A DNA stretch of 64,000 nucleotides from Artemia franciscana (lineage: Eukaryota; Arthropoda; Branchiopoda; Anostraca; Artemiidae): assembly GCF_032884065.1 (NCBI RefSeq), contig NC_088866.1, positions 52,150,068 through 52,214,067 on the forward strand, given 5' to 3'. The notes under the pieces are model-generated. The model worked only from the letters and a program-made list of their open reading frames with translations, was not told where the DNA came from and did not search any database. Positions 2,450 through 63,514 of the stretch are shown here, in pieces. The position numbers and the translations under genes are program-made. Every line of letters begins with the position of its first letter. Position 1 is the first letter of the stretch.

Positions 2450-3520
2450 CTAGCTGTTGGTGTGGCGCTTTGTTCCACACCAACACCTAGTTGGTGGGGG
2501 CACTTCGCAACCCCCCCAAGCCCCCCCCCCCCCGCGCACGTAAGTCGTTAGGTGCCGTATTAGTTACGCGCCATTGTAGTTGTATCCCTGTGTTTCATCT
2601 GTGAATATAGATAGATATATATATGTTTTAACTACGTTAAACTTGCGAATATACAACATTCTTCGCTGTCCCATTGTCTGTGCATAGAAAAAGATTGTCA
2701 GGTTTACCGACTCTTGAACATGCAACATATAATTGTCCATGGGAAAAACAATCCGTATTCAGATCTATACTGAATTTTTCTAATGATTGCCCTTGAGCTT
2801 TGTTGATGTTGATTGCTAATCGAATATTGCCAGTGTCCCCGTTGTCATTTAGATATCCCCCTGTGCCCCCCCGGCGTACCCGTTGTAGTTGTGTCCCTGT
2901 GTCTCGGTCGTTATTTATATTCCCTGTGTCCCAGTGTCCCGGTCGCCGCAAGCCTGTTTTCACGTTGTTCTTATGATTCCTCGGCACGCTTTCTTTTGGC
3001 ATTATCTCTTTGAGCCGCAAGCCTGTTTTCACGTTGCTCTTGTGATTCCTCAGCACGCTTTCTTTTGGCATTATCTCTTTGAGCTGCAAGCCTGTTTTCA
3101 CGTTGCTCTTGTGATTCCTCGGCACGATTTTTTTTGGTAATTTCTCTTTGAGCTGCAAGCCTGTTTTTACGTTGCTCTTGTGATTCCTCGGCACGATTTT
3201 TTGTAATTTCTCCTTGAGCCGCAAGCCTGTTTTCACATTGTTCTTGTGATTTCTCAGCACGCTTTCTTTTGGCATTATCTCTTTGAGCTGCAAGCCTGTT
3301 TTCACGTTGCTCCTGTGATTCCTCGGCACGCTTTCTTTTCTTACTTTCTCTTTTAGCCGCAACCCTGCTTTTACGTTGCTCTTGTAATGGCAACTTATAA
3401 TGACGTCATATACAAACATACAAATACGTACATGGTATCATAATGCTCAATCCTTATAATGACGTCAGTAGACAAACATGACGCCTTATAATGACGTCAG
3501 TCGACAAACATGACGTCAGT
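2450..3520 (-). mobile_element. Helitron deletion derivative (copy A)
   Basis: The left edge is the 3' end of a minus-strand Helitron. On the minus strand the DNA ends in a 10-bp stem (GTTGGTGTGG at 2,457-2,466 with CCACACCAAC at 2,475-2,484 on plus), then AACAG and CTAG, followed by T. The same ending occurs in the plus-strand Helitron that ends at 63,514. Inside are a coding remnant (2,637-3,419) and, upstream of it, four TGACGTCA palindromes (3,401, 3,460, 3,492 and 3,511), matching the palindrome-rich 5' region of the 61.6-kb Helitron. I could not find the TCTTCTATATA-type 5' terminus, so the right boundary is approximate. Confidence 0.85.
2637..3419 (-). pseudogene. Helitron Rep/helicase remnant: N-terminal repeats fused to helicase C-terminus
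   Basis: This 260-codon open frame contains two separated parts of a Helitron replicase. The N-terminal part has seven tandem 69-bp (23-residue) units with a core like QEQRENRLAAQ and a basic RKRAEES segment. After a short Gly/Asp/Arg-rich stretch encoded by a GC-rich minisatellite, the last 60 or so residues are the end of a PIF1-type helicase (NKAQGQSLEK, then SHGQLYVACSRV), which is the helicase motif V/VI region. The Rep HUH nuclease and most of the helicase are missing. It therefore cannot transpose itself, but the frame has stayed open across the join. Copy B has five repeat units and is broken. Confidence 0.85.
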
Positions 3521-13345: not shown

Positions 13346-13399
13346 CAGATAGTCCTCTCAAACATTCAACAGTATAGGCTAGTTTGCCTGTCGGCATTC

Positions 13400-14878
13400 A
13401 AAAATGTTTTAAGACTCATCAAGTACCCCTCCCCACGGTAATCTTTAGTAAAAGGTGAAAGATTAATTCGATTTGAGGAGAGGCCAGAGATATGACAATT
13501 GCCAAGTTGACTTAGGTATATAAAAACAAATCCTAGTAAATCCTCATGGTTTTTTTTAACAAGGTTTAAAAGCAATAAAAAAATTCAATGTTCAATCAAT
13601 TAAATACGGGCCAAAAAATCATATGATGAGAAAACATATTCAATGAGCAGCAATTCATGGGCAACTTTAATGAAATGGTACGAAAACTACATCCACAGAA
13701 AATAACATAAATATTTAGGAAAGAGGCCCAAAAATTAATTATAAAGTAACTGAGAAGTTGATCAATTGTTGTAGCCAAAGGTCCCCCTACTTAAATATTC
13801 CAAGAAGCTTAGCGGTAGCGACGGAATTCTTAGTTTGATACGTTACCAATGCAATTGACTTGATGAAATTTGTTGTGAACAAGGGCATTTCACTTTTTAA
13901 GACTAGACTTTGTGACTTAATCTAAATTTCAGCAATTTAATTTGATTCCTAGTTCAATTTGAAAATTGGTATATGATAATTACAGAGTTTTTTCAAAAAC
14001 AAAATGGATCAGGCATTCAATCAGTTTCGGCAATTTAATTTAATTATGGCAATTGGTCATTGATACCATCATTTGCCTTAACGCAAGACTAAGAAAAACA
14101 AAATATGTTTATTAAGAGACGTTCAGGAGAAAATTCCAGAACCATTTTCTATAGAGTATACGCTAAACTCTCTCCGTAATATTTCAAATATTTCAGCTTA
14201 TTAATTAATAGGTTTAATAGGGCTCTAATCTTCAGCATTAATGGCATTTGATAGATGTAATTTTAATACTTGTCCTGTAAAGCAACGGCGAAAACCCTGT
14301 TCACTTTGATTTCCATGTGACAACAATAAGAAAAATTTGATACTGTAACATACCATTAATGGAAGAAGCAAATTTTTTTTAAATATACAGTTTTTTAATA
14401 TTATTCTTTGAATACAGAATAAATAATTTTATTACGGATTTGTTAAGATTTTGGCAAAAGAATCGCAGAATATACGATTTAAAGAAAACAAAATCTGGTT
14501 TGATAACTTATCGTTACTCCGTTATAATGTTATGCCTTGGTTTTCCGATTTGGTTACAAAGTAAAAATAAAATTTTGTTTGGCAATGGATTGGGAAAGTG
14601 GCGTTGAATATTTGAATATTTGAAACCAATTCCAATGAAAGCAATTGAAGCAAAAGTAGAAGAGTTAGAAGAAGAAATTCCAAGGTGCCAATCTCTAATC
14701 AAGGTAATCTTTTCAATTAGTAGGCTAGCATGTTTGGATCTTCTAAGGTAGTTTGAGCTATAGTAACAAAACAGCAAAAAAAAATTAATGGGGGAGAAAA
14801 TCAGGCTATCATCGATTTATTTTGAATGAAGATCTTCGAATATTAATAATATATGAGTGTTAAACTAGTTTTTAAAGA
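13400..14878. other. Duplicated DNA, no gene recognised (copy A)
   Basis: AT-rich, repeated at about 45,030-46,540. A short plus-strand stretch at 14,636-14,703 is Glu-rich (MKAIEAKVEELEEEIPRCQ) and runs into a possible splice donor AAGGTAATC. It is preceded by a TGA and I saw no acceptor, so I do not call an exon. Confidence 0.35.
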
Positions 14879-17748: not shown

Positions 17749-19280
17749 TCAAACAGTTCGTAGTAACGAACTGTAGTAAGGAGCGACCCGGCTCAATAGT
17801 AACCAAAAGTCTAAAAAATGGAATTTTGGTACCAATAGCAACACTAAAAGAATCGCATTTTGATGCTGATTTTAAATATATAAGTTTCATCAAGTTTAGT
17901 CTTACCCATCAAAAGTTACGAGCCTGAGAAAATTTGCGTTATTTTAGAAAATAGGGGGAAACCCCCCCCCTAAAAGTCATAGAATCTTAACGAAAATCAC
18001 ACCATCAGATTCAGCGTATCAGAGACCCCCACTGTAGAAGTTTCAAGCTCCTATCTACAAAAATGTGGAATTTTATATTGTTTGCCAGAAGGCAGATCAC
18101 GGATGCGTGTTTATTTGTTTTTTTTTCCCAGGGGTGATCGTATCGACCCAGTTGTCCTAGAATGTTGCGAGAGGGCTCATTCTAACGGAAATGAAAAGTT
18201 CTAGTGCCATTTTTGAGTGACCAAAACAATTGGAGGGCACCTAGGCCCCCTCCCACGCTAATTATTTTCCCAAGTCAACGGATCAAAATTCTGAGATAGC
18301 CATTCTATTCAGCGTAGTCGAAAAACATAATAACTATGTCTATGGGGACGACTTACTCCCCCACAGTCCCCGTGGGAGGGGTTACAAGTTCAAAACTTTG
18401 ACCAGTGCTTACATATAGTAATGGTTATTGGGAAGTGTACAGACGTTTTCAGGAGGATTTTTGGTTGGAGGCAGGGGTTGAGAAGAGGAGGATATGCTGG
18501 GGAAATTTCCATCGAGGAATTTGTCATGGGGGAAGAAAATTTCCATGAAGGGAGCGCAGGATTTACTAGCATTACTTAAAAAAAAAATGAAAAAGTTTTT
18601 TTTTCAGCTGGAAGTAAGCAGCAGCATTAAAACTTAAAACGAACCGAAATTATTACCCATATGAGGGGCGAACCCCCTCATATATGTAATAAAAACATAA
18701 GAATACAAAAGTTCTTTACGTAAGCTAATTTATAAGTTACGTAATCTTTTACTTATAAAAAGATTCGTAAAAAATTAAAAGCTTTAGTTGCCTTTTTAAT
18801 TAACCGAAAATCGGAGGGCAACTAGGCTTCCTCCCCCGCTCTTTTTTTCTCAAAATCATTCGATCAAAATTATGAGAAATACATTTAGCCAAAAAAAAAT
18901 AAATATACAAATTTCGTTTTAATTATTCCTCTGCGGAGAGCCAAAATCAAAACATGCATTGATTCAAAAACGTTCAGAAATTAAATAAAAAAAACAAGTT
19001 TTTTAAATGAAAGTAAGGAGCGACATTAAAACTTAATAACGAACAGAAATTACTCGGTATATGAAAGGGGATTTTACTTCTCAACGCCCCACTCTTTACG
19101 CTAAAGTTTTTTACTGTTTTAAAATGTAGAGTTAAGGGAAAGAGTCAAACTTTAGCGTAAAGAGCGGGGCATTGAGAAGGAAAAGCCCCTTTCATATACG
19201 GAGTAATTTCTGTTCGTTTCAAGTTTTAATGTCGCTCCTTACTTTCATTTAAAAAACTTGTTTTTTTATTTAATTAACAT
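17749..19280 (+). repeat. R1 copy a (hairpin-headed composite repeat)
   Basis: It begins TCAAA followed by the R1 head hairpin (here CAGTTCGTAGTAACGAACTG), then GTAAGGAGCGACCCGGCTCA. In order it carries the TAGGGGG/CCCCCTA mini-hairpin near 17,952, GATTCAGCGTATCAGAG, a C-tract module (GCCATTTTTGAGTGACC...CCCCCTCCCACG), the CCCCCACAGTCCCCGTGGGA hairpin near 18,358, and a second C-tract module. It ends in foldback FB1. It sits inside a ~2-kb block absent from copy B. Confidence 0.85.
18991..19267. repeat. Foldback palindrome FB1
   Basis: Two inverted arms of about 115 bp flank a loop of roughly 45 bp. Arm 1 runs from AAACAAGTTTTTTAAATGAA to CTTTACGCTAAAGTTT; arm 2 is its reverse complement ending TTTAAAAAACTTG. 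Both arms share TTCTCAA where most other copies read CCTCAA. Mismatches between arms are few. Confidence 0.9.
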
Positions 19281-20170: not shown

Positions 20171-21640
20171 TCAAACAGTTCGTGGTAACGGCTCAATAGT
20201 AACCAAAACTCTAAAAGACGGAATTGTGATACCAATAGTTACATCAAAAGAATTGTATTTTAATGTTGATTTTAAATATATAAGTTTCATCAAGTTTAGT
20301 TTTACCCATTAAAGGTTATGAACCTGAGAAAATTTGCCGTATCTTATTTTATCGAATCTTAATTTATCGAATTTATCTAATCTTAATGAAAATAACACCA
20401 TCAGATTCAGCGTATCAGAGAACCCTACTATAGAAGTTTAAAGCTCCTATCTACAAAAATGTGGAATTTTATATATTTTGCCAGAAGACAGATCACGTTT
20501 ATTTTATTTTTTTTCTTCCCAGGGGTGATTGTATCGACCGAGTGGTCCTATAGTGTCTCGAGAGGGCTCATTTGAACGGAAATTAAAAATTCTAGTGCCC
20601 TTTTTAGTGACCAAAAAAATTGGTGGGTGCCTAGGCCCCCTCCCACGCATATTTTTCCCCAGAGTCACCGGATCAAAATTTTGAGATAGCCATTCTGTTC
20701 AACTTAGTCAAAAACCTAATTTGGCTTTGGAGACAACTTACTCCCCCACATTCCCAGTGGGAGGGGCTGCAAGTTACAAACTTTGACTATTGTTTACATA
20801 TAGTAATGGTTATTATGAATTGTACAGACGTTTTCAGTGGGAAATTTTTCGCGTTGGGGTGGAGGTTGGTAGGGGGAAGGAGGATACGTGGAAGGATCTT
20901 TCCATGGGGGAATTTATCATGAGGGAAGAGAATTTCCATGAAGGGGGTGTTTTATTTGCAGAATTTTCTAGCATTATTTAAAAAACAATGTAAAAATAAA
21001 TACATTTTTTCAACTGGAAGTAATCAACAGCCTTAAAACTTAAAGCGAACATAAAATATTACCCAAATAAGGGGGTTCGTCTCCTCCACAATACCCTGCT
21101 CTTTACGCTAAAGTATTTTTAGTATTTTCAACTATCTATTCTACGGCCTTTGTGATTCGGGGGTCATTCTTAAAGATTTGGGACAAAATTCAAGCTTTAG
21201 TGTGAAGAGTGAGGAATTGACGAAATCTAAAGTTCGTTTTATTTATTCATATGCGGTGAGCCAAAATCAAAACATGTATTAGTTCAAAAACGTTCAGAAA
21301 TTAAATAAAAAAACAAGTTTTTTTAAATGCAAGTAAGGAGCGATATTAAAACTTAATACGAACAGAAATTATTCCGTATATGAAAGGGGTGGTTCCCTCC
21401 TCAACGCCTCACTCTTTAGGGTGGTTCCCTCCTCAACGCCTCACTCTTTACGCTAAAGTGGTTTTATTGTTTTAAAAAGTAGAGTTGTAACGAATAGTCC
21501 ATCTTTAGCGTGAAGAGTGAAGCGTTGCGGAGGGGACAACCCCTTTCATATACGAAATAATTTATGTTCGATTTAGGTTTTAATGTCGCTCCGTAATTGC
21601 AGTTAAAAAAAAAACCGTTTTTTTTCATTTAATATTAAAC
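20171..21640 (+). repeat. R1 copy b
   Basis: The head hairpin is interrupted: CAGTTCGTGGTAAC is joined directly to GGCTCAATAG, a small internal deletion. The remainder follows the R1 order and ends in foldback FB2 (about 21,309-21,620). From 20,230 it closely matches the repeat at 55,388 onward, which shares the unusual tract TTACCCATTAAAGGTTA. It is therefore part of a second duplicated block. Confidence 0.85.
21309..21620. repeat. Foldback palindrome FB2 with a 33-bp arm duplication
   Basis: Inverted arms are as in FB1, but arm 1 contains a tandem 33-bp duplication around GGGTGGTTCCCTCCTCAACG (about 21,386-21,450). Arm 2 lacks the duplication, so the arms no longer pair over it. Confidence 0.85.
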
Positions 21641-23139: not shown

Positions 23140-24200
23140 CATAAACTCTACGAAAAATGTGGTTCAATTCAGCTTTCTGAAATAGCAATTCCGTTCAGTA
23201 TAGTTGAAAGACCAAATAATTATGTCTATAGTAATAAAATGACTCCCCACAGTCCGTGGGGAGAGGCCTGTATGTTATGGATTTTGCTCATTATTTACGT
23301 ATAGTATTTGCCATTGGGAAGTATACAGACATTTTTTTAGAAGGGGGGATTTTGTGCTTGGGGTGGATATCCATAGGGAAAAAGTTTGAGGTAAATTTCT
23401 ATTGGGAGAATGGGGAGGGACGTTTCTGGGGGGTGAGTTTTCTGGGGGGAATTTTACTCTGAGGAAATTTGACAGAATTCCTTTATGAATTGGTTTTTAA
23501 TTACCCTTGCCAACTCAATTTTACATGTGGAGTTGTTCCAAGGGTATTATATGGAGGCTATTTATTGCGAATTTTGGATTTTTGGAAAAAAATTTTCCTA
23601 GAACGGGCATTTCCTGAGTGATCGTGAAACCAATTAGAAATTACAGTCTTTTTTCAAATGAAATCAAAGAGAATTTTTCAGGCTGAATCGTCTGGAAGAA
23701 ATTTTAGAGGATTGGTGGGTTCCTCGGGGACGAACTGTCTGGAGACAATTTGACAGGTGGGGGGCGCACTTTACATTGGATGAAATTTCCAGGAAGGAAT
23801 TTTTCTTGAGAGGAGGGGTTATATTTTATGAAGGTGAGCCAGAGTTACCTGCATTATTTGAAAAAAGATCATAAATTAAATCAAAACAACTTTTTTTTAC
23901 CTGAAAGTAAGGAGCAACATTAAAACTCAAAACTAACAGAAATTATTCCGTATATGAAGGGTTGTCCCCTCTTCAATACCTTGCTCTTTACGCTAAAGTT
24001 TGACTGTTTGTCACATTTTATTAAGAATGATTATTGAAACACAGGGACCATTTAATTAAAATAGGAATACTTTCAAAAAGTGTTAACATCTTTAGCGTCA
24101 AGGAAGAGGCAAACCTTCGTATGCGGAATAATTTCTGTTTGTTTTTGTTTTTATGTTGTTCCTTACTTTTAGTTAAAAAAAATGTGTTTTCTTTTATTTA
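23140..24200 (+). repeat. R1-superfamily fragment with foldback FB3
   Basis: It starts within the R1 body (TATAGTTGAAAGACCAAATA, CCCCACAGTCCGTGGGGAG). Its order resembles the old copies at 15.9 and 47.6 kb. It ends in a foldback (arms about 23,900-24,005 and 24,087-24,190). Both arms carry CAAC in the GGAGC(G)AC segment instead of CGAC. Confidence 0.7.
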
Positions 24201-24417
24201 ATTTCTAAATTAAGTTGACATTCCACCTGTTGAAAACTAGTTTAAATATTCCCGAATTACGGAATCGTAGTAGTCTTTTCGTCACTCAGGATTTTCTCCG
24301 TCTTACAAGACACAATTTCGGAGGCCATCACTAACTTTTTAGGGTCAGTATTGGTATTAAAAACTAAGGAAGTCGGTTAAGACCTATTTGAGAAAAATCC
24401 CACTGAATAACTACAGT

Positions 24418-28142: not shown

Positions 28143-28856
28143 TCAAACAGTTCGTGGTAACGTCTTACCCATCAAAAGTTACGAGCCTGAGAAAATTTGC
28201 CTTATTTAGGAAAATAGAGGGAAACACCCCCTAAAAGTCGTAGGATCTTAACGAAAATAACACCATGAGATTCAGCGTATCAGAGAACCCTACTGTAGAA
28301 GTTTCAAGCTCCTATCAACAGAAATGTGGAGTTTTATATTTTTTGCCAGAAGACAAATCACGGGTGCGTGTTTATTTGTTTGTTTGTTTTTTTTTCTTTT
28401 CCCCAGGGGTCATCGTATCGACCAAGTGGTCCTAGAATATCGCAAGATGGATCATTCTAACAAAAATGAAAAGTTCTTGTGCCCTTTTTAAGTGACCAAA
28501 AAAATTGGAGGGCATCTAGGCCCCCTCCCACGCCCATTTTTTCCCAAAGTCAACGGATTAAAATTTTGAGATAGCCATTTTGTTCAGCATAGTCGAAAAG
28601 CATTATAACTATGTCTTTGGGGATGACTTACTCCCCGACAGTCCCTGGGGGAGGGACTGCAAGTTACAAACTTCGACCAGTGTTTACATATAATAATGGT
28701 TATTGGGAAGTGTACAGACATTTTCAGGGGGATTTTTTTTTGGTTTTGGGGGTAGGGTTGAGGGGAGGGGGCTATGTGGGAGGATCTTTCCTTTTAGAAA
28801 TATGTCATGGGGGAAGAAAAGTTCAATGAAAAGGGCGCAGGGCGCAGGACGAATCT
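28143..28856 (+). repeat. R1 copy e (internally deleted)
   Basis: The head CAGTTCGTGGTAACG is joined directly to TCTTACCCATCAAAAG, removing about 130 bp of the normal R1 head region. The mini-hairpin is TAGAGGG with CCCCCTA, one mismatch. It ends near 28,856, followed by a minus-strand LINE remnant. Confidence 0.8.
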
Positions 28857-28859
28857 GGT

Positions 28860-29840
28860 CACGTTAGAAAAAAACGTCAAATTCAGAGCTTAATATACAA
28901 TGCTGGGTGTTCGGAGCCTCTCTATTATGGAGTATAATTTGAAAATAACACAACTATACGAGCGATAAAACATATATACCACAACCATAACTCAATTAAC
29001 GAAAGAACTGCTAAGAAATAACGTAACTATAAAGCGAAAACAGGTGAAAACTAACGGGAAAAAAAACGAACTAAGAGGTGGAAGGGGCCCAGAGAAAAAA
29101 TATAATCCTTTTCCAATTTTGAGCCTAAGTTCCGCAAAGGAGTAATAATGTCAGAAGCCCCGAAATACCGAATTATTTTCTTTTTCCTATAAGACCGGGG
29201 TACATGAAATAGAAACTTACAATAGCGGAAATATAATATACACAATTCAGCCAGATCTTGTCTTTTTTTCAGGATAGGTGAAATACCAGATAGGAAAAGT
29301 ATTGAATGGTCGCAAAAACTAATGTATAGCAATGCAAGCGCTTTTCGATAATAATGACCACGATTAGCTACTATTTTACCATAACCCGCTTTAAGTTTTC
29401 TTTAATATGTAGTACAATATTGATCCTAAAAGCTAGTAGATTCCAATAAATATGAATGCTTGACCGCCGCAAATCAGAGACACAATGGATGGAGAAGTTA
29501 GAACGCGGATTTCAAATGGGCATAGACTTTGCATTAAAGACAAGGTACTCACACTTATCAATATTCAATGACAGACCAACAGTTTTGAAATGTTTTGAAA
29601 TAGATGATACGGAATTCGAGAGGCTAGATCTAGAACGGCTATATCTAGAAGTATATCATCCGCATATGCAGTACAAGAGACAATTACCAAATTACAAAAA
29701 AGAAAGGGCATAATTTTGTATAACACACTGCGGATCAAAATACTGAAAAGATACGGTGAAAGAACACCACCTTGACGCACTTCCAAGCGGGTTGGAATAT
29801 TCCCATAACAATTAGAGTGAAACTTAACCGAATATGGGAA
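28860..29840 (-). pseudogene. LINE reverse transcriptase remnant (minus strand)
   Basis: On the minus strand from 29,840 downward it reads LEVRQGGVLSPYLFSILI, then CTAYADDILLD (RT motif C, YADD). Further on it reads LAELCILYFRYCKFLFHVPR, then YFGASDIITPLRNLG. The QGGVLSPYLF...YADD order is diagnostic of a non-LTR RT, and the trailing region fits a LINE C-terminus. The upstream RT motifs are missing because the match stops exactly where R1 copy f begins (29,841). Stops lie between the segments. The exact clade is not assigned. Confidence 0.8.
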
Positions 29841-31590
29841 TCAAACAGTTCGTGGTAACGAACTGTAGTAAGGAGCGACCCGGCTCAATAGTAAAGGAAA
29901 CTCTAAAAAACGGAATTTCGATGCTAAAAGATATATCAAAAGAATCGGATTTTTATGCTGATTTTAAATATATACGTTTCATCAAATTCAGTCTTTGTCA
30001 TCAAAATGTACGAGCCTGAGAAGATTTGCCTTATTTTGGAAAATAGAGGCTAGCACCCTCTAAAAGTCATAGGATCTTAACGAAAATCGCACCATCGCAT
30101 TCGCGTATCAGAGAACCCTATAGAAAAAATTTCAAGGTCCAAAATACAAAAATGTGGAATTTCGTATTTTTTGCCAGAAGACAAATCACGGGTGCGTGTT
30201 TATTTGTGTTTTTTTTTTCCCAGGGGTCATCGTATCGTCCAAGTGGTCCTAGAGTGTTGCAAGAGGGCTCATTCTAACGGAAATAAAAAGTTCTAGTGCC
30301 CTTTTTAAGTGACCAAAAAAATTAGAGGGCACCTAGGCCCCCTCCCACGCTCATTTTTTCCCAAATTCAACGGATCAAAACTTTCAGATAGCCATTTTGT
30401 TCCGCATAGTCGAAAACCATAATACCTATGTCTTTGGGGATGACTTACCCCCCACAGTCCCTGGGGGAGGGGCTGCAAGTTACAAACTTCGACCAATGTT
30501 TACATATAGTAATAGTTACTGGGAAGTGTACCGACGTTATCAAAGGAATTTTTTTGGTTTGGGTGTGGGGTTCAGGGGAGGGGGCTATATGGGAGGATCT
30601 TTCTTTGGAGGAATATTTTATGGGGGAAGAGAAATTCAATGAAAAGGGCGCAGGACTTTCTAGCGTTACTATAAAAAAAAAACAATGAAAATATAAACAT
30701 GAAAAAGTTTTTTCAATTGAAAGTAAGGAGAGGCATTAAAACTTAAAATAAACAAGAGATTATTACGCATATGAGGGGTTCTAGAAATACTTTAGCATAA
30801 AGAGCGAGGTATTTAGGAGGAGATAAATACTTCGCTGTTTATGCTAAAAAATTTTTAAGTAATTTCAACTATTTATTCTACGGCCTTTCTGATTCAGGGG
30901 TCATTCTTAAAGAATTGGGACAAAACAAGATTTAGTGTGAAGAGCAAGGTATTAACGAGGGGACCAACCCTCTCATATATATAATCAAAAATATAAGAAT
31001 ATAAAAGTTTGTTACGTAAGTTAATTCTTAAGTTACGTATTTTGTTTACTAATAAAAACGTTCGTTAAAAATTAAAAGATCTAGTTGCCTTTTTAAGTAA
31101 CCGGAGGGTACTTTTTAAAAATTGGAGGGCAACTAGGCCTCCTTCCCCACACCTTATTTCTCAAAATCGTCTGATCAAAACTAAGAGAAAGCCATTTAGC
31201 CAAAAAAAGAATTAAAATGCAAATTTCATTTTAATAATTTATGTACGGAGAGCCAAAATCAGACATGCATTAATTCAAAAACTTTCAGAAATTAAATAAA
31301 AAAAACAAGTTTTTTGAAATGAAAGTAAGGAGCGACATTAAAACTTAAAACGAACACAAATTACTCCGTATATGAAAGGGGCTTTTCCTCCTCGACTCCC
31401 CGCTCCTTGCGCTAAAGTTTGATTCTTTCTCGCAACTCTACTTTTTAAAATAATAAAAAACTTTAGCGTAAGGAGCGGGTTGTCGAGGAGGAAAAGCCCC
31501 TTTCATATACGGAGTAATTTGTGTTCGTTTTAAGTTTTAATGTCGCTCCTTACTTTCATTTCAAAAAACTTGTTTTTTTTATTTAATCAA
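29841..31590 (+). repeat. R1 copy f, ending in foldback FB5
   Basis: Complete head abutting the minus-strand LINE RT. The mini-hairpin near 30,044 is a perfect TAGAGG/CCTCTA instead of TAGGGG/CCCCTA. Both C-tract modules are present, then FB5. It is the longest R1 copy here. Confidence 0.85.
31306..31578. repeat. Foldback palindrome FB5
   Basis: Two nearly perfect inverted arms of about 118 bp surround a loop of about 40 bp. Both arms share changes not seen in the other foldbacks: GAACAC for GAACAG, CTCGAC for CTCAAC or CTCAAT, and CTCCTT for CTCTTT. Confidence 0.92.
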
Positions 31591-40103: not shown

Positions 40104-41030
40104 CTAGCTGTTGGTGCGGCGCTTCGTGCCACACCAACACCTAGTTGGCCCCCCCCGTGCGCGTAAGTCGTTAGGCGCCGTATTAGTTACGCGCCATTGT
40201 AGTTGTGTCCCTGTGTCTCATCTGTAAATATAGATAGATATATACATATATATATATATGTTTTAACTACGTTAAACTTGCGAATATACAACATTCTTCG
40301 CTGTCCCATTGTCTGTGCATAGAAATAGATTGTCAGGTTTACCGACTCTTGAACATGCAACATATAATTGTCCATGGGAAAAACAATCCGTATTCAGATC
40401 TATACCGCATTTTTCTAATGATTGCCCTTGAGCTTTGTTGATGGTGATTGCTAATCGAATATTGCCTGTGTCCCCGTTGTCATTTAGATATCCCCCCTGT
40501 GCCCCCCCCCCCGGCGTACCCGTTGTAGTTGTGTCCCTGTGTCTCGGTCGTTATTTATATTCCCCGTGTCCCAGTGTCCCGGTCGCCGCAAGCCTGTTTT
40601 CACGTTGTTCTTATGATTCTTCGGAACATTTAGTTTTGGCATTATTTCTTTGAGCCGTAAGCCTGTTTTCACGTTGCTCTTGTGATTCCTCGGCACGATG
40701 TTTTTTGGTAATTTCTCTTTGAAGCCGCAAGCCTGTTTTCACGTTGCTCATGTGATTCCTTGGCACCCTTTCTTTTAACATTATCTCTTTGAGCTGTAAG
40801 CCTGTTTTCACGTTGCTCTTGTGATTCCTCGGCACGCTTTCTTTTCTTACTTTCTCTTTTAGCTGCAACCCTGCTTTTACGTTGCTTTTGTAATGGCAAC
40901 TTATAATGACGTCATATACAAATATACAAAATACGTACATGGTATCATAATGCTCAATCCTTATAATGACGTCAGTCGACAAACATGACGCCTTATAATG
41001 ACGTCAGTCGACAAACATGACGTAATTCAA
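40104..41030 (-). mobile_element. Helitron deletion derivative (copy B)
   Basis: This is the paralogue of 2,450-3,520. It has the same minus-strand terminus (CTAG at 40,104-40,107 on plus) and a hairpin of GTTGGTG paired with CACCAAC. The poly-C tract next to the hairpin is shorter than in A. Two TGACGTCA-rich segments remain at 40,905-41,020. The 5' terminus is not identified. Confidence 0.85.
40265..40907 (-). pseudogene. Helitron helicase/N-terminal repeat remnant (copy B)
   Basis: The helicase end (INKAQGQSLEKCGIDLN, then HGQLYVACSRVGKPDN) is readable on the minus strand at about 40,270-40,475. Five 69-bp N-terminal units follow up to about 40,880. One unit carries an extra base that shifts the frame, so the 260-codon fusion of copy A is split into overlapping short frames here. 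The difference of five versus seven units shows the coding minisatellite changed after duplication. Confidence 0.8.
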
Positions 41031-45024: not shown

Positions 45025-46540
45025 CATTCAACAGTATAGGCTAGTTTGCCTGTCGGCATTCAAAAATGTTTTAAGACTCATCAAGTACCCCTCCCCACGG
45101 TAATCTTTAGTAAAAGGTGAAAGATTAATTGGATTTGAGGAGAGGCCAGAGATATGACAATTGCCAAGTTGACTTAGGTATATAAAACCAAATCCTAGTA
45201 AATCCTCATGGTTTTTTTTTTTAACAAGGTTTAAAAGCAATAAAAAAATTCAATGTTCAATCAATTAAATACGGACCAAAAAATCATATGATGAGAAAAC
45301 ATATTCATTGAGCAGCAATTCATGGGCAACTTTAATGAAATGGTACTAAAACTAAATCCACAGAAAATAACATAAATATTTAGGAAAGAGGCCCAAAAAT
45401 TAATTATAAAGTAACTGAGAAGTTGATCAATTGTTGTAGCCAAAGGTCACCCTACTTAAATATTCCAAGAGGCTTAGCGGTAGCGACGGAATTCTTAGTT
45501 TGATACGTTACCAATGCAATTGACTTGATAAAATGTGTTGTGAACAAGGGCATTTCACTTTTTAAGACTAGACTTTGTGACTTAATCTAAATTTCAGCAA
45601 TTTAATTTGATTCCTAGTTCAATTTGAAAATTGGTATATGATAATTACAGAGTTTTTTCAAAAACAAAATGCATCAGGCATTCAATCAGTTTCGGCAATT
45701 TAATTTAATTATGGCAATTGGTCATTGATACCATCATTTGCCTTAACGCAAGACTAAGAAAAACAAAATATGTTTATTAAGAGACGTTCAGGAGAAAATT
45801 CCAGAACAATTTTCTATAGAGTATACGCTAAACTCTCTCCGTAATATTTCAAATATTTCAGCTTATTAATTAATAGGTTTAATAGGGCTCTAATCTTCAG
45901 CATTAATGGCAATTGATAGATGTAATTTCAATACTTGTCCTGTAAAGCAACGGCGAAAACCCTGTTCACTTTGATTTCCATGTGACAACAATAAGAAAAA
46001 TTTGATACTGTAACATACCATTAATGGAAGAAGCAAATTTTTTTAAATATACAGGTCTTTAATATTATTCTTTGAATACAGGATAAATAATTTTATTACG
46101 GATTTGTTAAGATTTTGGCAAAAGAATCGCAGAATTTACGATTTAAAGAAAACAAAATCTGGTTTGATAACTTATCGTTACTCCGTTATAATGTTATGCC
46201 TTGGTTTTCTGATTTGGTTACAAAGTAAAAATAAAATTTTGTTTGGCAATGGATTGGGAAAGTGGCGTTGAATATTTGAATATTTGAAACCAATTCCAAT
46301 GAAAGCAATTGAAGCAAAAGTAGAAGAGTTAGAACAAGAAATTCCAAGGTGCCAATCCCTAATCAAGGTAATCTTTTCAATTAGTAGGCTAGCATGTTTG
46401 GATATTCTAAGGTAGTTTGAGCTATAGTAACAAAAAGGCAAAAAAAATTAATGGGGGAGAAAATTAGGCTATCATCGATTTATTTTTAATGAAGATCTAC
46501 GAATATTTATAATATATGAGTGTTAAACTAGTTTTTAAAG
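45025..46540. other. Duplicated DNA, no gene recognised (copy B)
   Basis: Paralogous to 13,356-14,878. Short minus-strand frames (45,028-45,240; 46,178-46,441) are kept in both copies only because divergence is low. Confidence 0.4.
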
Positions 46541-58179: not shown

Positions 58180-58690
58180 GCCCTCCTCAACGCCCCGCTC
58201 TTTTCGCTAAAGTTTTTATTGTTTTAAAAAGTAGGATTGTGAGACAGAGTCAAACTTTAGCATAAAGAGCTAAGCATTGAGGAGGAGAAAGTCCCTTTCA
58301 TATACGGAATAATTTCTGTTCGTTTTAATGTCGCACCTGACTTTCAGTTAATTTTTTTATTTTATTTAATCTATATAAGGTTTTAGCAATGACAATTCAA
58401 TGACAATAAAAACAAGTTTTTTCAACTGAAAGTAAGGAACAACATTAAAACCTAAGACGAACAGAAATTATTCCGTATATGAAATGGTCTGTCCCCTCCA
58501 CAAAACCCCGCTCTTTACGTTAAAGTTCTTATTGTTTTAAAAAGTAGGATCGTGAGAGTCAAACTGGCGTAAAGAGTAAGGTGTTGAGGAGGAGACAGCC
58601 CCTTTCAAATACCGAATGATTTCTGTTCAATTTAATGTCGCTTCTTATTTTCAGTTAAAAAAAAAAATCATTTAATCTCTATAAAGTTTC
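58180..58690. repeat. Two foldback units in tandem (FB7 partial, FB8)
   Basis: FB7: short first arm (CCCTCCTCAACGCCCCGCTC), loop, full second arm to about 58,345. FB8: arms about 58,417-58,525 and 58,560-58,665. In FB8 the arms have diverged (arm 1 has GGAACAAC; arm 2 reads as GAAGCGAC), so it is older than FB5. Confidence 0.85.
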
Positions 58691-61694: not shown

Positions 61695-62146
61695 TGACGT
61701 CATGTTTCTGTGTCGGCTGACGTCATGAAATTAGTGTTCAGGTGACGTCATGTTTCTGTGTTGGCTGACGTCATGAAATTAGTTGTCGTCATTTTTGCTT
61801 TGACGGTGACGTCATTCAAGTTATATAAGACATATGTTCACGTAGAAATCTATTAATGTTTAAGTTTACAATGACTGATGAAGATGCTCAAAGAGTCTAT
61901 GCCAAAAAACTTGCTGCTGATAGTTCCTCGGCACGCTTTCTTTTCTGACTTTCTCTATCAGCAGCAAGTTTTTTGGCATAGACTCTTTGAGCATCTTCAT
62001 CAGTCATTGTAAACTTAAACATTAATAGATTTCTACGTGAACATATGTCTTATATAACTTGAATGACGTCACCGTCAAAGCAAAAATGACGGCAACTAAT
62101 TTCATGACTTAATTTCAGAACTTAATTTCTGTGTTGACTGACGTCA
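61695..62146. promoter_or_regulatory. Seven TGACGTCA palindromes
   Basis: Exact TGACGTCA (the consensus cAMP-response/ATF site) occurs at 61,695, 61,718, 61,743, 61,766, 61,807, 62,064 and 62,139. Four more lie in the related region of copy A (3,401, 3,460, 3,492, 3,511). It may be an element-borne promoter array or simply a repeated palindrome. Function is not shown. Confidence 0.6.
61771..62107. repeat. 153-bp inverted duplication of the Helitron 5' end
   Basis: Arm 1 is 61,771-61,923 and arm 2 is 61,955-62,107, with a 31-bp loop and a single mismatch. The arms carry the start of the Helitron protein (MTDEDAQRVYAKKLAAD from ATG 61,871 on plus, and the same on minus). The minus strand continues through the loop as RESQKRKRAEE, the first N-terminal repeat unit. 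The arms are therefore head-to-head copies of the 5' end. Confidence 0.93.
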
Positions 62147-63130: not shown

Positions 63131-63326
63131 GGTCGATTAGCAATCGCCATCAACAAAGCTCAAGGGCAATCATTAGAATCATGAGGTATAGATCTGAATA
63201 CGGATTGTTTTCCCATTGACCATTATATGTTGCATTTTCAAGAGTCGGTAAACCTGACAATCTATTTATATGCACAGACAATGGGACAGCAAAGAATGTT
63301 GTATATTCGCAAGTTTTACGTAGTTA
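63131..63326 (+). pseudogene. Helitron helicase C-terminal remnant
   Basis: It reads GRLAIAINKAQGQSLES and then a stop. After shifts it gives GIDLNTDCFP and CTDNGTAKNVVYSQV, matching the helicase end at 2,637-2,830. Here the frame is broken by a stop and small indels. Confidence 0.8.
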
Positions 63327-63449
63327 AAAACATATATATATATATATATATATCTATCTATATTCACAGGTGGGACATAGGGACACAACTACAATGGCGC
63401 GTAACTAATATGGCGCGTAACGACTTACGCGCGCGGGGGGGCTTGGGGG

Positions 63450-63514
63450 GGGGGCGCAAAGCGCCCCCACCAACTAGGTGTTGGGGTGGCGCGAAGCGCC
63501 ACCCCAACAGCTAG
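63450..63514 (+). terminator. Helitron 3' terminal hairpins and CTAG end
   Basis: The inner hairpin is GGGGCGC-AAA-GCGCCCC. The terminal hairpin is GTTGGGGTGGCGC (63,480-63,492) with loop GAA and GCGCCACCCCAAC (63,496-63,508), a 13-bp perfect stem. AG and CTAG (63,511-63,514) follow. In Helitrons this hairpin acts as the transposition stop signal. Confidence 0.88.

Follow-up and report, generated by a model that had tools for sequence, protein, structure and literature searches.

The window, a stretch of 64,000 nucleotides of the Artemia franciscana genome, contains a family of foldback sequences, among which we concentrated on the palindrome FB5 (31291..31587, plus strand). Its 130-nt arms (31291-31420 and 31458-31587) are 98% complementary and lie 37 nt apart (spacer 31421-31457), and folding as single-stranded DNA is predicted at -149 kcal/mol, as against a mean of -28.6 for shuffled versions (z -32). 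Related palindromes on the same strand are FB1 (18980..19274), whose loop is inverted relative to that of FB5; FB3 (23874..24202), whose loop measures about 106 nt and whose arms have decayed independently; FB8 (58398..58680), which has been duplicated as a passenger without matching of its arms; and a further old copy at 21299..21633. The numbering of FB3, assigned by the CAAC in each of its arms, and that of FB8 are inferred, the sequence-only reading that introduced these names having come to us without their coordinates. FB1 and FB3 each have one copy of 97-98% identity about 44.8 kb upstream (G000:C4:52124295 and 52129159), which suggests that the region around them has been tandemly duplicated; the right flank also matches in the upstream copy of FB1. 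A second near-perfect foldback, with 154-nt arms that are 99% complementary and 31 nt apart, occupies 61770-62108. An Rfam scan of the window returned nothing except two hits to U5 snRNA that exceed the gathering score, both on the minus strand (13376-13492 and 45038-45154). Several translated segments repeat inside the window at a spacing of about 32-38 kb, and the translations at 2637-3437, 40272-40550 and 63185-63514 contain fragments that presumably resemble a Helitron helicase at its C terminus. A scan with an exact 21-base pattern gave no match in viral contigs or plasmids.

To define the family we searched the genome assembly (1,270,528,402 bases in 6468 contigs) and sampled the best matches to each query, which makes the sample non-random. 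With FB5 as the query, 40 places were scored among 1333 first-look candidates, namely FB5 and 39 others at 96-99% identity; all 39 other scored places were taken for each of FB5, FB1 and a copy in L024, along with 20 of the 39 for FB3 and 20 of the listed places for FB8. The resulting subfamilies are A, that of FB5 (40 copies); F, that of FB1 (38 of 40, two duplicates being removed); B, that of the copy in L024 (40 copies); C, a mixed set (15 of 17); and D, the old subfamily of FB3 (16 of 21 extracted). The copies left out are L001, which lies within the window; L119, identical to the copy in L024; L041, L079, L129 and L135, which by their right flanks are the same insertion as another row; and, from subfamily D, L144 and L145 (the insertion of FB3), L149 (like L147), and L148 and L159 (incomplete arms). 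The columns of the A/T-run were excluded throughout (0-23 for A, F, B, C and the other copies, 0-15 for D).

FB5 forms the 3' terminus of a longer repeat, a putative non-autonomous element of 1.75 kb (29841..31586, plus strand) that starts with TCAAACAGTTCGTGGTAACG and ends with TTTATTTAA before a T. We compared the 28 copies of subfamily A for which 1.5 kb or more of upstream sequence was retrieved. In 22 of them the common left flank reaches as far as an A followed by TCAAACAGTTCGTGGTAACGAACTG or its variants (29841), and six (L013, L019, L020, L025, L026 and L027) end before the left boundary TCAAACAGTT. In FB5 itself this start lies inside a longer version of the element (28143..31586, plus strand), which has an upstream TCAAACAGTTCGTGGTAACG motif and to which L016 and L021 align from about 28162; eight of the 22 boundaries, including that of FB5, are internal to a longer version and have a shared flank, leaving 14 independent ones. 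The boundary TCAAACAGTT provides the 5' TC, and the base before it at the independent boundaries is A in 11, T in two and G in one; a TT insertion preference of the Helentron/HINE type is thus not seen at these 14. At the other end, the last two bases of the element, AA or GA, are followed in 39 of 40 cases by a T that may belong either to the target or to the element, so that insertion appears to be mostly between A and T, a preference with exceptions. The right flanks after TTTATTTAA and this T differ among the subfamily A copies, and we saw no target duplication in the flanks of this subfamily when they were judged by eye. A stand-alone MITE was rejected on the grounds that the left flank is conserved up to at least 1.45 kb in subfamily A and that the right flanks differ. 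The FB and Galileo foldback elements are transposons with long terminal inverted repeats and target duplications; the present element is like them in its long inverted repeats but unlike them in having its palindrome at one end only and in the lack of a visible duplication.

Helitrons begin with TC and end with CTRR. The CTRR was not found at the 3' ends examined here: subfamilies A and F end mostly in TTAA and subfamily B in GTAA. By eye, a short hairpin, AAAAAACTTGTTTTTT in A or AAAAAAACTAGTTTTTTT in B, lies about 6 nt from the end, within the large palindrome. This genome is rich in Helitrons with long open frames: at least 150 places pass the cut-off of the PF14214 profile (150 of 150 scored, from 7436 first-look candidates), and many of them fall within frames of 1500-1700 codons. 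In the part of the A. franciscana genome report available to us, Helitrons account for 8.81% of the genome (PMC11492255). We looked for an origin of the element from these abundant Helitrons in the flanks of two copies with 1688-codon frames and found no support, the flank pieces, which may miss the Helitron ends, being unlike the element (best E 0.16). Parts of the second foldback, 61770-62108, do match the piece upstream of two Helitron copies. We call the element Helitron-like, rather than a Helitron, because its 3' end is not CTRR and no partner was found with the two copies examined.

It had been noticed from the letters of the window that both arms of FB5 carry GAACAC, CTCGAC and CTCCTT, those of FB1 TTCTCAA, and those of FB3 CAAC. 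All of these are present as described, FB3 being taken as 23874-24202, but the accompanying claim that they are private to single copies does not survive comparison with the other loci. CTCGAC is found in both arms of 38 of the 40 copies of the FB5 subfamily (right arm only in the other two) and CTCCTT in both arms of 32 (left only in six, right only in one), and both are absent from subfamilies B and C (55 copies); GAACAC is in both arms of just three of the 40, in the left alone in two and in the right alone in one. Of the 38 copies in the subfamily of FB1, 36 likewise have TTCTCAA in both arms, and FB1 itself departs from its subfamily consensus at four left-arm and two right-arm columns, none of them mirrored. 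CAAC is the consensus of each arm in the FB3 subfamily, many old copies of which differ in one arm; when its neighbouring base is included (GCAAC), six of 19 copies have it in both arms and ten in a single arm. As the states of FB5, FB1 and FB3 belong to subfamilies, private conversion within each copy can be rejected. The shared states are common in the family in part, in that they are widespread within subfamilies, and to this extent the outcome that the sequence-only reading had named as its refutation has come about.

Between subfamilies the two arms change together. When the five subfamily consensi are compared over 90 aligned columns, 17 of the 19 variable columns have an identical pattern in both arms and two do not. 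The pairwise comparisons, made before duplicate removal on 31 copies of A, 40 of F, 40 of B and 17 of C, yield ratios of mirrored to unmirrored columns of 4:1 for A-F, 12:1 for A-B, 11:0 for F-B, 11:2 for A-C, 10:1 for F-C and 1:1 for B-C. Changes confined to single copies behave differently: in A, F and B, 51 are in the left arm only, 46 in the right arm only and six mirrored, about 0.09 mirrored being expected by chance (Fisher p 6e-14 for the consensus ratio of 17:2 against these variants). The corresponding counts in the mixed set C are 25, 24 and four (chance 0.25). A further 23 heterogeneous copies, from which the FB8 copies L120, L121 and L122 were left out, carry 49 mirrored derived states and 249 one-armed ones, random re-pairing of the arms giving a mean of 17.1 mirrored and a maximum of 34 in 2000 trials; we read this excess as the states of unsampled subfamilies. 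Chance alone is therefore not enough to account for the shared states, as the sequence-only reading had held, and independent arms are rejected both by the co-variation of the consensi (17 of 19) and by the excess on re-pairing (49 against 17.1). Overall, the arms are more alike than independent mutation allows, although this does not hold within the old subfamily D.

The sequence-only reading had also predicted that the arms would pair by locus, with clustering by arm type as the opposite outcome. In a FastTree phylogeny, without support values, which we built from 156 copies (the four sets A, F, B and C plus 23 others, again without L120, L121 and L122) and which has their 312 arms as tips, neither pattern prevails. 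The own right arm is the nearest or tied nearest tip for one of 40 left arms in A, five of 38 in F, 15 of 40 in B, three of 15 in C and five of 23 among the others; most arms of B are nearly identical, which bears on its 15 of 40. Grouping is far stronger by subfamily (26 label changes against a mean of 180 for shuffled labels) than by arm type (77 against 104). Palindromes are hard to assemble, and the few mirrored single-copy variants, together with an inverted loop in one copy described below, rest on one assembly; the arms might thus have been made alike by assembly or polishing. We consider such an artefact highly improbable, given that the mirrored states recur at dozens of loci whose flanks differ and that the same assembly retains 97 one-armed single-copy variants.

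If one arm were copied onto the other at any chromosomal site, by ordinary replication-linked template switching or gene conversion with no tie to transposition, matching should also be seen in copies that have long stayed in place. Switching of this kind is known for inverted repeats, as far as the parts of PMC8604942 and PMC8794818 available to us describe it, and the six mirrored single-copy variants against 0.09 by chance would fit it; these variants could have been inherited from unsampled sources or have arisen after insertion. The old stranded copies of subfamily D, however, show no excess above expectation. Their arms are 8-10% diverged from the consensus, their mirrored cells number 10 of 265 against a re-paired mean of 10.5, and the distance between the arms of a copy, 0.160, is close to the 0.177 obtained by adding the divergences of its left and right arms. 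Passenger duplicates also still keep their mismatches, with the reservation that they are older than the young copies: the four copies descended from the one FB8 insertion have 14 arm mismatches in common, 13 of them with identical states, and the three from the FB3 insertion have 15, with identical states at 14. Duplication of a locus by other means therefore leaves the arms unmatched. The arms of FB8 had been noted as an exception to the matching, which these 14 shared mismatches bear out, and their condition fits age and passenger copying. A constant conversion rate across all sites is rejected by the passenger duplicates and by subfamily D, and we regard site-independent switching in general as distinctly unlikely. 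Since the consensi co-vary, single-copy changes are mostly one-armed and passengers keep their mismatches, we conclude that the arms have been matched in the transposing lineage and not after insertion. The notion that one arm is copied onto the other is thus supported for the source lineages of the subfamilies and not for individual loci.

The loop of roughly 40 bases undergoes inversion as well, and the subfamilies are not alike in its orientation. Its orientation was read from the conserved left flank and scored relative to F in A, F, B, C and the other copies, subfamily D having been oriented by similarity. In F, 37 of the 38 copies have a clear flank and agree, the 38th, with an unclear flank, scoring as inverted. 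The loop is inverted relative to F in all 40 copies of A, in 39 of 40 of B (one with a weak flank) and in 11 of 15 of C, the remaining four of C being F-like; among the other 26 copies, 13 are inverted, five F-like and eight unscored owing to loop length. In one copy of subfamily B, L111, the loop is the exact reverse complement of the commonest B loop, and a G-to-A change is mirrored in both arms 15 nt from it. A second copy, L117, shows this change as well, there confined to the left arm; since the change falls on a CpG, independent mutation is possible. In the part of PMC8794818 at hand, a compensatory change combined with a loop inversion is described as the strongest support for template switching and as extremely rare.

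Several states are caught between one arm and two. In subfamily A, column 106 is changed in the right arm only in nine copies and in both in six, and column 98 in the left only in one and in both in two. Others have stayed one-armed or nearly so, such as columns 110 (left-only in 15), 90 (left-only in 12, right-only in one) and 104 (right-only in seven, in both arms in one) of F and columns 105 and 114 of A (five each), column 117 of A being a mismatch in the consensus itself. As some mismatches have spread unmatched through many copies, matching is not obligatory in each round of transposition, though it is frequent along the lineage. Alternatively, the founder of each subfamily might have been made once by complete snap-back regeneration of one arm from the other, with nothing piecemeal in between, and the consensi are of the kind this would produce: the arms are identical in F and B, differ at one mismatch each in A and C, and in D differ only in the A/T-run region. 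The patchwork within A, in which FB5, L002 and L003 are matched at columns 24 and 65 and unmatched at 105 and 106, is not what a single complete regeneration would leave, and we find this explanation doubtful.

The main rival is compensatory selection, by which only well-paired hairpins would transpose and an independent matching mutation would follow in the other arm; this would likewise limit pairing to source lineages. The outer stem does appear constrained. Of 13 fixed columns between A, F, B and C, the subfamilies covered by this comparison, 12 fall within the 32 loop-proximal columns (86-117), whereas 69 of the 97 unmirrored single-copy variants are outer and 28 inner (Fisher p 1.5e-5); subfamily D differs at outer columns too. 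Outer columns 24-85 are nearly frozen among A, F, B and C despite free variation in single copies, and the sequence of the outer arm is probably functional. Against selection as the cause of matching, A-C, A-G and C-T mismatches, typed by hand, have reached 15, 12 and 9 of the copies sampled. Mismatched copies having spread, imperfect stems seem to transpose, and selection on pairing would furthermore leave the loop inversion unexplained. We accordingly judge compensatory selection unlikely as the source of the matched arms.

What we observed directly is the co-variation of both arms between subfamilies, their later independent decay, the loop inversions and the position of the palindrome at the end of a longer repeat. 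Taken with the inverted loops, the fact that matching is confined to the moving lineage suggests that the arms of the folded palindrome serve as templates for each other while the element itself is being replicated. We think it probable that the arms are re-matched in a hairpin while the element replicates for transposition, and not at fixed sites. Under this proposal the palindrome would fold as the element replicates, and one arm would template the other, either by template switching during synthesis or by mismatch correction in the folded strand, both of which would match the arms. A mutation in one arm would then be copied to the other or erased, and switching between strands would sometimes turn the loop around. 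The source lineage would keep a near-perfect palindrome while its sequence changes, and an inserted copy that no longer moves would lose the matching, its arms diverging independently. We infer that this templating belongs to the transposition intermediate and that a Helitron-type Rep/helicase mobilizes the element. For Helraiser, the part of PMC5876387 available to us reports that one strand is used and presents a model with lagging-strand synthesis on a displaced strand. A palindrome of 297 nt exposed on such a strand would be expected to fold. More tentatively, transposition could include a proofreading of the element's own end, in which the hairpin would resolve mismatches and flip the loop, so that the palindrome would be kept only in active lineages and its mismatches would date the last transposition; this is a possibility we hold with less confidence. 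The flipping of the hairpin loop would be comparable to the flip and flop of the terminal palindromes of parvoviruses.

Arm matching and spacer inversion in inverted repeats through template switching are already established (PMC8604942, in the part available to us), and the correction of quasipalindromes by template switching is also described in the accessible part of PMC8794818; PMC7202029 appears to treat the same subject. As in those repeats, one arm appears to template the other, mismatches vanish and the spacer can invert; unlike in them, the arms here are about 115-130 nt long and part of a mobile element, with the matching found in source lineages and not in the stranded copies tested. 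The conserved 5' dinucleotide (here TC), the insertion between A and T, the lack of a visible target duplication and the palindrome near the 3' end are features in common with the Helitrons, as described for Helraiser in the available part of PMC5876387. The element differs from Helitrons in ending with TTAA or GTAA instead of CTRR and in having a palindrome of about 297 nt. Helentrons, HINEs and DINE-1, according to the portion of PMC4067079 at hand, are comparable in being non-autonomous with palindromes at or near both ends, and insert in TT or T-rich sites with subTIRs of 12-15 bp; here, by contrast, the base before the start is in most cases an A, and the palindrome at the 3' end greatly exceeds theirs in length. 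We found no report tying arm matching to the transposition of a Helitron-like element in the literature searched, mostly as titles and the beginnings of abstracts, and the coupling of the two is possibly a new point.

Long inverted repeats are unstable, as the available part of PMC8604942 notes, and it is in our view an open question by what means a mobile element can preserve a long palindrome in nearly perfect form. A family with many related copies allows events in the moving lineage to be separated from later ones, the stranded copies serving as the control. If the proposed re-matching is correct, the folded hairpin would be a real step in the replication cycle of the element, and the mismatch between the arms of a copy would measure the time since its last transposition.
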